From the NCBI RefSeq assembly GCF_028714775.1, contig NZ_JAQTLS010000005.1:161573-225572 (forward strand): a stretch of DNA of 64,000 bases, given 5' to 3'. This DNA is from Thiothrix sp. (GTDB lineage Bacteria > Pseudomonadota > Gammaproteobacteria > Thiotrichales > Thiotrichaceae). The position numbers and the translations under genes were made by a program. Under the pieces are notes generated by a model. The model did not search any database. It was given only the letters and a program-made list of their open reading frames with translations, and had not been told where the DNA came from. Below, one piece after another: positions 8,397 through 12,640 of this stretch; position 1 is the stretch's first letter, and every line of letters starts with the position of its first letter.

Positions 8397-8444
8397 TGTA
8401 GGAGCTTGCCCTGCAAGCGATCGCCAGCATGGCTGGCTCCTACA
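8397..8444. repeat. REP-like palindromic element
   Basis: TGTAGGAGC (8397-8405) ... GCTCCTACA (8436-8444) perfect 9-bp arms with internal TTGCCCTGCAAG and CCAGCATGGCTGG; resembles the tgtaggagc...ttgc REPs of other gammaproteobacteria. Confidence 0.65.
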
Positions 8445-8766
8445 GGAAAAACAGGCGGGACGTTAGCTTACCGCCATGCTGGTAGCTGTTGAGCGGGATG
8501 GCACGGAAGTCGTAACACAAGCGCCACAGGTGGCGGCAAACTTCAAGGTCACGGTTGGCGAGAAATAGGAAGGTACGCTTGTTGGGCGCATAAGCCGCCG
8601 TCACCAGCGATTCGAGGATAATCAGCAGCCGATTTTCGAGCTTTTCGCCCAAAGTGAAACGTCGGTTACGGGGCAGCTTATCGAGGTGCGGGATCATCCA
8701 TAGCAACAATTCCCGGCAATCCTGAACGGCTCGTGGAACGGACGGGGCAGACTCTTTTTTATTCAT
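8440..8766 (-). CDS. Avd-like (bAvd / four-helix-bundle) diversity-generating-retroelement accessory protein
   Basis: 108 aa basic helical protein (RELLLWMIPHLDKLPRNRRFTLGEKLENRLLIILESLVTAAYAPNKRTFLFLANRDLEVCRHLWRLCYD), characteristic of bAvd-type proteins; directly downstream of an FGE-type variable-protein gene. Confidence 0.75.
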   Translation of the reverse strand: MNKKESAPSVPRAVQDCRELLLWMIPHLDKLPRNRRFTLGEKLENRLLIILESLVTAAYAPNKRTFLFLANRDLEVCRHLWRLCYDFRAIPLNSYQHGGKLTSRLFFL

Positions 8767-8777
8767 TAGGTTGCCTC

Positions 8778-8804
8778 AAAAAAAATCGACCGCGCGATGC
8801 GCGG
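8778..8804 (-). terminator. Hairpin plus T-run between the FGE-domain gene and avd
   Basis: CCGCGC-ATC-GCGCGG (minus strand, 8790-8804) followed by TCGATTTTTTTT; about 83 bp downstream of the target-gene stop. Confidence 0.6.
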
Positions 8805-8886
8805 TAACACCAACCCAACCACCACCATTCCCGGCAGCGACCTCAGAAAAGTATAGGCCATCTCCCCGACGATAAAGGATAAAGGG

Positions 8887-11745
8887 CTAATTAGTCCTGG
8901 CGGCTCGCAAGACTCGAAATCCCACACCGTAGCTTCGGTTGACAGTGTTGGTCCAGAGACGCGCGGAGGAACGCAACCACTCAGGTTTGTCGTTCCACGA
9001 ACCACCACGCAACACCCGCACACCTGACTCATTTTTAGGCTCCATACAACGACCTTCACTGCCATCAAAGTCTGCTTTCCACTCAGAGCATGTCCATTCC
9101 CAAACATTGCCCGCCGTATCATACAACCCGAAAGCATTAGGAGAAAAACTGCCTATTGGCGCTACATACTTTCCACCCCATTGGTCATCACAACCATCAC
9201 AATTCGCTTTACCTTTTGCAGCATCTTGATCACCCCACCAGTAAGGCGTATCAGTTCCGGCACGTGCCACATATTCCCACTCAGCTTCAGTCGGCAGACG
9301 GTATTGGTAGTTGCCTTCCGTTTTGATACTCAACCATTGCAGATAAGCATTGGCATCATTCCACGACACATAGGTCACAGCACGCCGCCCACGCTCGTTT
9401 TTGCTGGGTTCACCATTCGGGTATTTCAGGTCTTTTTGTGTTCCTTGCTGTTGCCAAACGTAGTAATCGTACTGCTCATACGTCACTTCGTATTTACCGA
9501 TGAAAAAGGGCTGCGAAATTGTGGCATTGGTAGCAGGATAACCAAAATTTTGCTGACCATATACTCCCTGATCGTTCAATGATTTATTCGCCATCTCCCC
9601 GAAATCCTTGTCGTATTCCCCTACCCGGAATTCACCAGTCGGTGGCTGAATTTCTTTTTCCACCAGTTCAGGCAAAGGCTCCGGCAACCAACCCCAACTC
9701 ATTAGACGGAATTTTTGCAAGGTCAGCATGTAGGATGGCGGCAAGCTGTTATCCAGCGTCCACAAGTAAGATTGCCCGACGAAGGCCAGCAACAGCAACA
9801 GCATGACGCCTTGCCCCCATCCAACCCGACGGCTACGGCGCAGGAAACATTCATCCACACTGCCCTGCTCCGGGCGCAGCTTGCGGTAAGCACGTAATTC
9901 ACTCCAGCTTGCCAGATTGAACCAACGCCCCAAGCCCTTTTTACCCTGCCATTCCTTCGCTTGTCGGGTGAGTTGGTCACGGTAGAACCCACGCTCGCGG
10001 TTTTTGTCGATGTAGTCGTAGAGGGTTTTCCAGTAGCCGACCAGCTTGCCGCTGGTTTCATCCTTACCTTTGGCGCGGATCAGGGTTTCGTGGATGAGGT
10101 CAATGGATTGGTCGTGCTCATTATCGCCAACCGTCACCAGCAGGCGCAGGCTACCATTAGCTTTGCGGTTGCCACCGTCCGGCGTTGGCCTGCCCGTCAG
10201 GTAATCAATCACCTGTTGCCCACGTTTAGGGTCAACCTTTTTGCCCCCCGCTGCCAGCCGCGCTTCACCCAAGGGCAAACGACGGCGGGTATGACGGCCT
10301 TCGTCATTGATGCGGGTCAGCGCCAACAGCAATTCCAGCGCATCGGCTTTGCCTTTGGGCAGATCACTTTCCAAGCGTGCCAACAACGCATCAGCCTGTT
10401 CTTCCAGCAAACCAGCAATACCGCCCTTGCTGATGTACAACTCACCGCTGAGGCGATTGCCCTGCCGTTGTTCCCACAACACCCGCAAGGCATTTTCCAC
10501 CAGTGGCAATGCGCCCGGTTCATCTTTGGCATCGTTCATGATGGCGGTGGTAATCGCACCCACATCCAGCCCCGCCAGCCGTGCAGGCTGTTCGATGGCT
10601 TCGCGCAAGCCATCCTGCGCAATGGTTTTCAACAGGTAGCGTTTGCAGTGCTGGTTGTAGAGTTCCGACAGGCATGGCAATTGCTCGAAGCCTTCCAAGA
10701 AGTCGATGCGCACCGTGCTGATCACAAACAGCGGACAATCTTTGTCTTTCAACGCGGTGGATAGCTGCTGGTCAAAGTGCAACTTTTCGGCTTTGTCGGC
10801 AAAGGTGAACAACTCCTCAAACTGGTCAACCACCAGCAGAAAGGCTTTTTTATCCTGCTTGAAATCACGCAAGCGCAGGGCAAGCGCGTTAGGGTCTTGC
10901 CGCAAACTGCGGTAACGCTTGCCCGTATCACGTAACGCCGCGTCCGCCACCAGCGAATGCTCCAGCACTTCCGCCAGTTGTTGCAACGGCTTTTCCCCCG
11001 GCATCAACGGGCCGAGGATGTGCCACTGTTCGTAGCCAGTCCGTGCCCACAATGCACCCTGTTGGATCAGCGGCAACATTCCGGCGTTCACCAGCGAGGA
11101 TTTGCCTGCACCGCTATTGCCTTCAATTTGCAACCAGCGACAGTATTGCGTGTCGATGGGGATGTTGGCGGGATTGCTGTCGCGTTGTGTGCCGAGGAAT
11201 TTGAGGGCTTCCAGCGTTTCCTTGCGCCGCCCAAAAAACAGGTGTGCATGTTCGGGCTGGAAAGCACTCAAACCAAGGAACGGACAACCTTCCACGGTAT
11301 TGCTGTTGTCCAGCAGTTCGGTTTTATCGCGGATGGCGTGGATAAGGGTTTCTGGCAAAGCCTGATCGGCTTGCCAACGCTGGATTTGGAACAGGCTCAG
11401 GAACGGCGGCAGGCTATGCACATTGCCTTCCGGCAGCAGGATCGGGAAAATCGGCAGACGTTGCCCATCATCATGCGGCGACAGATGTCGCGCCAAAGCA
11501 AACTGGGTTTCCGCCATCACCCAACGCTGGATGCCGTTCGCCCCAACCAGCAGCACAAAGGCAGAACAGCTTTGCAGCGCGGTTTGTAGCTGCGCCATCC
11601 AATTATCGCCAACGCGGATGGAGTCTTCGTCACGGAATACCGTAAACCCGGCTTTTTCCAATTCAGTACGCAAGGCAAGCGCCGCTTCCAGATTGGTGCG
11701 GCTGTAGCTGAGAAAGATTTGTGCGGTCGGCGGGGTTACACTCAT
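8887..11745 (-). CDS. TIR - nSTAND NTPase - TM - formylglycine-generating-enzyme (FGE)/C-type-lectin domain protein; candidate DGR target
   Basis: TIR-like N-terminus (AQIFLSYSRTNLEAALALRTELEKAGFTVFRDEDSI), Walker A GNSGAGKSS, Walker B FLLVVDQFEELF, TM helix GVMLLLLLAFVGQSYLW, FGE core (YRLPTEAEWEYVARAG, GLYDTAGNVWEWT, VRVLRGGSWN...GVGFRVLRA); start MSVTPPTAQ at 11745. Confidence 0.9.
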   Translation of the reverse strand: MSVTPPTAQIFLSYSRTNLEAALALRTELEKAGFTVFRDEDSIRVGDNWMAQLQTALQSCSAFVLLVGANGIQRWVMAETQFALARHLSPHDDGQRLPIFPILLPEGNVHSLPPFLSLFQIQRWQADQALPETLIHAIRDKTELLDNSNTVEGCPFLGLSAFQPEHAHLFFGRRKETLEALKFLGTQRDSNPANIPIDTQYCRWLQIEGNSGAGKSSLVNAGMLPLIQQGALWARTGYEQWHILGPLMPGEKPLQQLAEVLEHSLVADAALRDTGKRYRSLRQDPNALALRLRDFKQDKKAFLLVVDQFEELFTFADKAEKLHFDQQLSTALKDKDCPLFVISTVRIDFLEGFEQLPCLSELYNQHCKRYLLKTIAQDGLREAIEQPARLAGLDVGAITTAIMNDAKDEPGALPLVENALRVLWEQRQGNRLSGELYISKGGIAGLLEEQADALLARLESDLPKGKADALELLLALTRINDEGRHTRRRLPLGEARLAAGGKKVDPKRGQQVIDYLTGRPTPDGGNRKANGSLRLLVTVGDNEHDQSIDLIHETLIRAKGKDETSGKLVGYWKTLYDYIDKNRERGFYRDQLTRQAKEWQGKKGLGRWFNLASWSELRAYRKLRPEQGSVDECFLRRSRRVGWGQGVMLLLLLAFVGQSYLWTLDNSLPPSYMLTLQKFRLMSWGWLPEPLPELVEKEIQPPTGEFRVGEYDKDFGEMANKSLNDQGVYGQQNFGYPATNATISQPFFIGKYEVTYEQYDYYVWQQQGTQKDLKYPNGEPSKNERGRRAVTYVSWNDANAYLQWLSIKTEGNYQYRLPTEAEWEYVARAGTDTPYWWGDQDAAKGKANCDGCDDQWGGKYVAPIGSFSPNAFGLYDTAGNVWEWTCSEWKADFDGSEGRCMEPKNESGVRVLRGGSWNDKPEWLRSSARLWTNTVNRSYGVGFRVLRAARTN
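8890..9025 (-). other. Candidate DGR variable region (VR) at the 3' end of the FGE-domain gene
   Basis: C-terminal VLRGGSWNDKPEWLRSSARLWTNTVNRSYGVGFRVLRAARTN occupies the position diversified in FGE-type DGR target proteins. Confidence 0.55.
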
Positions 11746-11799
11746 GCCCGATCTCCAAGCCCATAGGAATAGCAAGGATTATGGCACAAAAACCCACAC

Positions 11800-11867: not shown

Positions 11868-12152
11868 ATGCTCGCCACCACCGCCACGACCCGCCCTGCC
11901 CGTTTCGGCCTGCGGGCAACCTTGCAACAAGAAGCCATTTTGCGCCGCGCCGCTGAAGTCAGCCGCAAGTCCCTGACGGAGTTCATTCTGGACAGTGCCT
12001 GTGCCGTTGCCGAACAGACCTTGCTGGAACAGCGCCTGTTCATGGTTTCCGGGCAACAATACCAAACCTTGCTGGAACTGCTTGACCGCCCACCCCAAGC
12101 GAATGCCGGGTTAGAAAAACTGTTCAGCAAAACCGCACCGTGGGAACAGTGA
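11868..12152 (+). CDS. DUF1778 / TacA-like RHH antitoxin
   Basis: 94 aa; RFGLRATLQQEAILRRAAEVSRKSLTEFILDSA; stop overlaps the start of the downstream GNAT gene (TGATG). Confidence 0.85.
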   Translation: MLATTATTRPARFGLRATLQQEAILRRAAEVSRKSLTEFILDSACAVAEQTLLEQRLFMVSGQQYQTLLELLDRPPQANAGLEKLFSKTAPWEQ

Positions 12153-12640
12153 TGCACGCACCAGCACCGTTATTGCGCGAACACGAATTGGAAGATTTTG
12201 ATTGCGGGCAAACCTCCCTCAATGACTGGTTACAACGTTATGCCCGCCAAGCACAAGGCAGCGGCTCTGCCCGTACCTTTGTGGTTACAGATGAAAAGCG
12301 TGTAGTTGGCTATTTCAGCCTGACGGTAGGCCAAGTTGATACGCTGGATGCGCCGGAACGGGTACGCAAAGGTATGGGGCAATATCCCATTCCTGTCATT
12401 CTGCTGGCGCGGTTGGCGGTTGACCAACGCTACCAAGGGCAAGGGATTGGCGTAGGGTTACTGAAAGATGCGATCCGCCGTGCCCTGATGATTGCAGAAC
12501 AGGCGGGAGTGCGGGCTATGATGACGCATCCCCTCAACGAGGATGCTGCACGTTTCTACCGTACATTCGGCTTTGAAGCATCCCCACTGGGCGGACAACA
12601 ACTGCTGCTGTTGTTGAAGGATGCCAAAAAATACGCCTAA
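12152..12640 (+). CDS. GNAT-family toxin (TacT-like)
   Basis: DFDCGQTSLNDWLQRYARQAQGSGSARTFVV...LARLAVDQRYQGQGIGVGLLKDAI...FYRTFGFEASP; paired with a DUF1778 antitoxin. Confidence 0.88.
   Translation: MHAPAPLLREHELEDFDCGQTSLNDWLQRYARQAQGSGSARTFVVTDEKRVVGYFSLTVGQVDTLDAPERVRKGMGQYPIPVILLARLAVDQRYQGQGIGVGLLKDAIRRALMIAEQAGVRAMMTHPLNEDAARFYRTFGFEASPLGGQQLLLLLKDAKKYA

Follow-up and report, generated by a model that had tools for sequence, protein, structure and literature searches.

The window analyzed here, which is the whole stretch of 64,000 nucleotides of Thiothrix DNA, carries on its minus strand a receptor gene whose product combines TIR, nSTAND1, transmembrane (TM) and FGE segments, followed by a hairpin, a remnant of avd and a pair of repetitive palindromes. 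The features are listed below in window coordinates.

8397..8444 (no strand): two TGTAGGAGC-type REP elements in inverted orientation, directly beside the scar (2 exact matches where 0 were expected)
8440..8766 (-): truncated avd remnant (Avd profile matches and alignment with an intact Avd)
8447..8464 (-): AACGTCCCGCCTGTTTTT, read here as a deletion scar fused to avd and identical to the 3' arm of the terminal hairpin of the template repeat (TR) spacer
8789..8805 (-): hairpin ACCGCGC-ATC-GCGCGGT with a T run, between target and avd (from the sequence)
8887..11745 (-): TIR-nSTAND1-TM-FGE receptor gene, the DGR target (Pfam)
8897..9015 (-): variable repeat (VR; adenine test against the Lamellibrachia-endosymbiont TR)
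8905..9642 (-): FGE/C-type-lectin-like sensor domain (PF03781 FGE-sulfatase, E 7.2e-45, aa 712-957)
9754..9810 (-): single TM helix (Kyte-Doolittle peak at aa 656)
9940..11283 (-): nSTAND1 NTPase domain (Pfam, E 1.3e-75, aa 165-612)
11404..11718 (-): TIR domain (Pfam TIR_2, E 1.7e-17, aa 20-124)

The receptor open reading frame spans 8887-11775 on the minus strand, and the ATG at 11745 yields a protein of 952 aa. Its effector half pairs a TIR domain with an nSTAND NTPase in which both the Walker A motif (GNSGAGKS at aa 219, near 11098-11121) and the Walker B motif (LLVVDQFE at aa 313) are intact, as in TIR-STAND receptors. The RWV.AE segment of the TIR domain, which we take to be the site of the expected NADase glutamate, is retained in the orthologs, and PADLOC matches were confined to the TIR part of the protein. 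One strong hydrophobic segment (near aa 656-674) separates nSTAND1 from FGE, and an RRSRR stretch on its N-terminal side suggests, by the positive-inside rule, that the TIR and STAND domains lie inside the cell and the FGE domain in the periplasm. In a PDB search the FGE domain matched 2y3c (Treponema denticola variable protein 1) with an E-value of 2.1e-16, such that both this match and PF03781 assign the VR-bearing end to the C-type lectin/FGE fold of DGR targets. The initial annotation had described a TIR domain followed by STAND-type Walker motifs (A and B), a single TM helix and, at the C-terminus, an FGE domain, a conflict-system architecture joined to a DGR-variable domain; Pfam (TIR_2, nSTAND1, FGE-sulfatase), motif and hydrophobicity analyses agree with that description throughout. 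Thiothrix orthologs share 64-75% identity with the window receptor. In both the TIR domain and the FGE flank pN is low relative to pS, which supports purifying constraint and hence retained receptor function, with dN/dS values that are rough given near-saturation of synonymous sites. FGE domains abound in this genome, with 10 matches to the query, and a TacA-type antitoxin and GNAT toxin pair lies upstream of the receptor gene (window 11868-12640).

The best-fitting template for the window VR is the TR of a Lamellibrachia barhami endosymbiont. Against it the VR differs at 14 of 32 adenine sites and at 7 of 87 non-adenine sites (p=2.6e-5), the seven latter differences mixing drift of the TR and of the VR because the reference TR comes from another genus. 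Comparison with the closest ortholog (from genome G006) gives the same picture, with differences at 16 of 32 adenine sites and 6 of 87 others, so the adenine-biased variation that the initial annotation proposed to look for among relatives is present. In the upstream flank, used as control, 18/82 adenines versus 106/309 other bases differ; adenines are not favored there, and the bias is thus limited to the VR. Codon changes within the VR fall mostly at AAC codons, pS is 0.19 in the VR versus 0.53 in the flank, and pN is 0.169 versus 0.053. The extreme case is the comparison of a sister locus on contig C14 with genome G015, whose VRs differ by 13/88 non-synonymous and 0/32 synonymous changes beside a flank pS of 0.56. 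Low synonymous and high non-synonymous change is what is expected if VRs have been copied anew from a TR that they share. Judged from these comparisons, TR-templated adenine mutagenesis evidently rewrote the end of the window FGE domain, and the receptor is, as first proposed, DGR-diversified, with domains and adenine test in agreement. The C-terminus quoted in the initial annotation as the variable region was correct in sequence and is confirmed by this test; its C-terminal position holds, and its limits, given as 8890-9025, are corrected to 8897-9015.

The hairpin that had been noted between the receptor and the Avd-like frame is indeed present and may be a terminator and/or a DGR hairpin; similar hairpins occur 3' of the VR in the Lamellibrachia endosymbiont, in the marine Thiothrix-type metagenome-assembled genome (MAG) G011 and in G002. 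The bAvd-like frame that follows matches two DGR Avd models below their cut-offs, Pfam bAvd (E 5e-8; 33.8 bits, cut-off 40) and NCBIfam NF033474 (E 4.4e-17; 62.3 bits, cut-off 80), in line with the earlier assignment. The intact Avd of the relative clears both models, and the low scores of the window protein are probably explained by its missing 3' end. Indeed, it aligns with the endosymbiont Avd to about residue 100 and then runs into LTSRLFFL, encoded by AACGTCCCGCCTGTTTTT and neighboring bases, where the intact protein goes on; a functional DGR would have an intact Avd, and this one has lost its C-terminus and misses both curated cut-offs.

The genome holds exactly two copies of the 18-mer AACGTCCCGCCTGTTTTT, one in the window and the other following the TR spacer of the sister locus (C14:78143-78160). 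At C14 and in G011 it forms the 3' arm of the hairpin closing the TR spacer, and nearly so in the endosymbiont, and the scar together with the adjoining REP element matches a segment downstream of the G011 TR at 50 of 52 positions. Because avd is truncated and fused to AACGTCCCGCCTGTTTTT, the 3' end of avd, the reverse transcriptase (RT), the TR and the spacer must have been deleted locally and the outer edges joined. Read in this way, the junction of a truncated avd with the 3' end of a TR spacer, remnant and breakpoint as in degenerate DGRs, evidently records the deletion beside the REP pair of what would have been a complete local avd-RT-TR-spacer cassette, with a breakpoint whose location is approximate. 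Of the earlier suggestion of a remote fossil target, "fossil" stands and "remote" does not, since the scar belongs to a local cassette.

The sister locus (C14:74781-78160; L010 6791-10161) encodes a paralogous TIR-nSTAND1-FGE protein and keeps its VR, a TR ~350 bp downstream and the conserved spacer, and it has neither avd nor RT. All 11 of its TR/VR mismatches over 125 bp fall at TR adenines, and the absence of any non-adenine mismatch suggests that a working RT acted there until recently. A REP pair lies between its VR and TR, and a stretch resembling the 3' end of an RT gene precedes the TR; C14 thus underwent a loss complementary to that in the window. The full arrangement survives in the Lamellibrachia barhami endosymbiont (L018), with target, hairpin, Avd, RT and TR in order and 12 of 12 TR/VR mismatches at TR adenines, and in a marine MAG (L017; also G011 C121) a target and its TR are present with no adjacent RT, 17 of 20 mismatches being at adenines. 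The TR-spacer RNA region (L010 9984-10160, L018 14486-14650 and L077 8677-8849) extends ~170 nt after the TR, ends in a strong hairpin and is well conserved between genera. Past the terminal hairpin, RNAalifold on four sequences returned a covariation term of only -0.56, and identity of the spacer with the Rfam RT-7 RNA was rejected (18.8 bits against a threshold of 116.8).

A search with PF00078 found no RT in the 64-kb window, in keeping with the initial annotation. The whole-genome search for a DGR RT and a matching TR that it had called for was likewise negative: neither an intact DGR RT with a catalytic YxDD motif, local or elsewhere in the assembly, nor a TR matching the window VR except at adenines (queried with the VR and both relatives' TRs) was found in this genome, a draft of 4.3 Mb in 70 contigs from which an RT or TR could be missing. 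Several candidates were discarded on inspection. As a template for the window VR, the C14 TR has 23 non-adenine mismatches in 95, and the C31 TR can be aligned along just 33 bp. The DGR-type RT on C31 is truncated and lacks the central palm segment with the YMDD motif that is present in the intact RTs of the same subtype in G011 and G012, and the remaining RTs are group II-type with maturase-like sequence (C45), adjoin a Cas1-like gene (C6) or are retron-like by eye (C4). The C31 locus itself (C31:10366-18310; L011) is a DGR with an HRDC accessory, a TR and two FGE targets; next to it are a trypsin-like protease and an AAA (MoxR-like) ATPase, a set reminiscent of ternary conflict systems. Another DGR relic is a 99-aa DGR RT thumb fragment (C5:145782-146024; L138 6783-7079), which sits beside a NACHT-FGE gene some 15.5 kb ahead of the window.

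Full-length orthologs occur in seven other Thiothrix genomes (G001, G002, G006, G008, G013, G014 and G015) and at two loci in G011 (C121, and C9 with an internal stop). In the flanking stretches of the orthologs in these seven genomes and at the two G011 loci, no intact cognate Avd and RT was found, and the single-contig genomes G006 and G001 contain neither a TR for their orthologs nor an intact cognate RT. In G006, G015 and G001 a different small inverted-repeat element lies directly 3' of the VR; the expected position of the DGR cassette is taken up by elements of ~150 bp that are related to one another and have ends of the GAAGAAAATCCTCCCCC...GGGGATTTTCTTC type (L063 9300-9500, L064 9180-9340 and L065 8110-8270, respectively). 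G005 has kept a TR, and its target is broken. Intact DGR RTs are encoded in G004 and G009 (a related subtype) and in G011, G012 and G008 (another subtype); other FGE targets adjoin most of these RTs. A broad class sample of 369 genomes added a single strong match, which had no tested DGR part closer than 1.5 kb, and a plasmid search returned no relative.

The REP element abutting the scar has 30 copies in the genome, 12 of them within 2 kb of FGE loci against 0.4 expected, a significance that is only a guide as the copies are clustered. TGTAGGAGC REP elements also flank a RAYT gene on C3. That region (C3:29494-35074; L078) holds two convergent FGE targets, separated by the REP-associated tyrosine transposase and by REP elements, and its counterpart on C16 of G011 has a TR, an Avd-like frame and RT fragments between the targets. 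The TGTAGGAGC palindromes, their inverted pairs and the flanked RAYT gene resemble GTAG-tagged REP elements and their transposases (PMC3733652, PMC2817692); unlike in those systems, the elements are here concentrated at degenerate DGR loci, a link that none of the best-ranked papers of our literature search describes.

We consider it highly probable that the window gene was the target of a once-complete local DGR and that a later deletion beside the REP pair stranded the receptor. The initial annotation favored service in trans by an RT and TR elsewhere in the genome, a mode of action proposed for DGRs 4 and 5 of Thiohalocapsa PB-PSB1 (PMC10907252); in its favor, C31 carries a DGR-type RT gene and C14 a TR. 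That the window target is still diversified in this manner is very unlikely, as neither TR matches the VR at non-adenine sites, the C31 RT lacks the YxDD-bearing palm, and the G006 and G001 orthologs are equally without a TR and an intact cognate RT. We regard as rather unlikely a related possibility, in which the C14 and G011 loci would be "satellite" DGRs that retain just template and target and continue to be rewritten by an RT from elsewhere, with the window locus as the fully stranded end state; the RT source may then be unassembled, of another subtype or in other cells.

An intact cassette might instead persist in other strains or cells, the assembled version being one deletion variant while diversification continues elsewhere. 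Long reads revealed such coexistence of intact and degraded variants for Thiohalocapsa DGRs 3 and 7 (PMC10907252), and the clean TR/VR pair at C14 speaks for recent activity there; against this stand the orthologs in other Thiothrix species, which also lack the cassette, and the other small inverted-repeat elements directly 3' of the VR in G006, G015 and G001, such that we judge this explanation unlikely. That the gene is an ordinary FGE receptor never served by a DGR, with Avd as a chance neighbor and variability due to positive selection on the binding surface, is barely credible: FGE domains are frequent in the genome and need not be DGR targets, but the adenine bias is limited to the VR and synonymous change is suppressed there, the intact DGR of the endosymbiont shares the gene order and has a homologous Avd, and the 18-nt TR-spacer scar and the TR-VR pairs of C14 and the endosymbiont contradict it.

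Under the local-deletion reading, the original DGR would have comprised target, hairpin, avd, RT, TR and spacer RNA; the sequence shows that TR-templated adenine mutagenesis rewrote the FGE end and that the deletion later took away RT, TR and spacer along with the 3' end of avd. The receptor is now probably frozen in a single form and passed on like any other immune-type receptor. As inferred from its domains, the periplasmic FGE lectin would bind a ligand of surface or phage origin, the signal would pass inward through the single TM helix, nSTAND1 would oligomerize using NTP, and the TIR domain, as an NAD-degrading or signaling effector, would kill or arrest the cell.

The FGE/C-type lectin fold is common to the window domain and TvpA (2y3c) of Treponema denticola, an FGE-type DGR target and surface lipoprotein with a C-terminal VR; in the window the fold is instead joined through a TM helix to TIR-nSTAND1. 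The Bordetella phage BPP-1 DGR (Mtd/Avd/bRT) combines target, hairpin, avd, TR and RT and acts by A-to-N mutagenesis; layout and mutagenesis are alike here, whereas the window has a cellular receptor as target and no RT or TR. DGR-diversified STAND-FGE sensors, TIR effectors and trans service have been described in multicellular bacteria, together with degenerate loci in which MITE-like repeats replace the RT or TR, several per genome among clade 5 DGRs (PMC10907252, PNAS 2024). Clade 5 targets such as those of Thiohalocapsa PB-PSB1 DGRs 3 and 6 likewise join nSTAND1 or NACHT to a C-terminal C-lectin/FGE domain, some with TIR (PMC10907252), a likeness in target architecture that extends to the several degenerate loci per genome and to the MITE-like repeats in place of RT or TR; the window has no RT to place in the clade. 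The window locus is hence a degenerate DGR target of an already known class, and it differs from the Thiohalocapsa loci in its readable scar, in having no matching TR and in the absence of the machinery also beside orthologs in seven genomes.

To that work (PMC10907252) the present case adds a scar that can still be read, a sister locus left with its template but no machinery, REP elements gathered at these loci, and the repeated loss of the machinery within one genus while the receptors persist. The locus offers a readable example of how bacterial "somatic hypermutation" systems end, with the machinery gone, the receptor intact and constrained, and small palindromic repeats at the breakpoints where diversifying machinery was lost. 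The scar and the RT-less TR/VR pair also mark former DGR targets that searches for RT genes alone miss. If confirmed, these receptors of Thiothrix would amount to naturally fixed samples of a huge library, which would allow ligand binding to be compared across fixed alleles with a known likely template.
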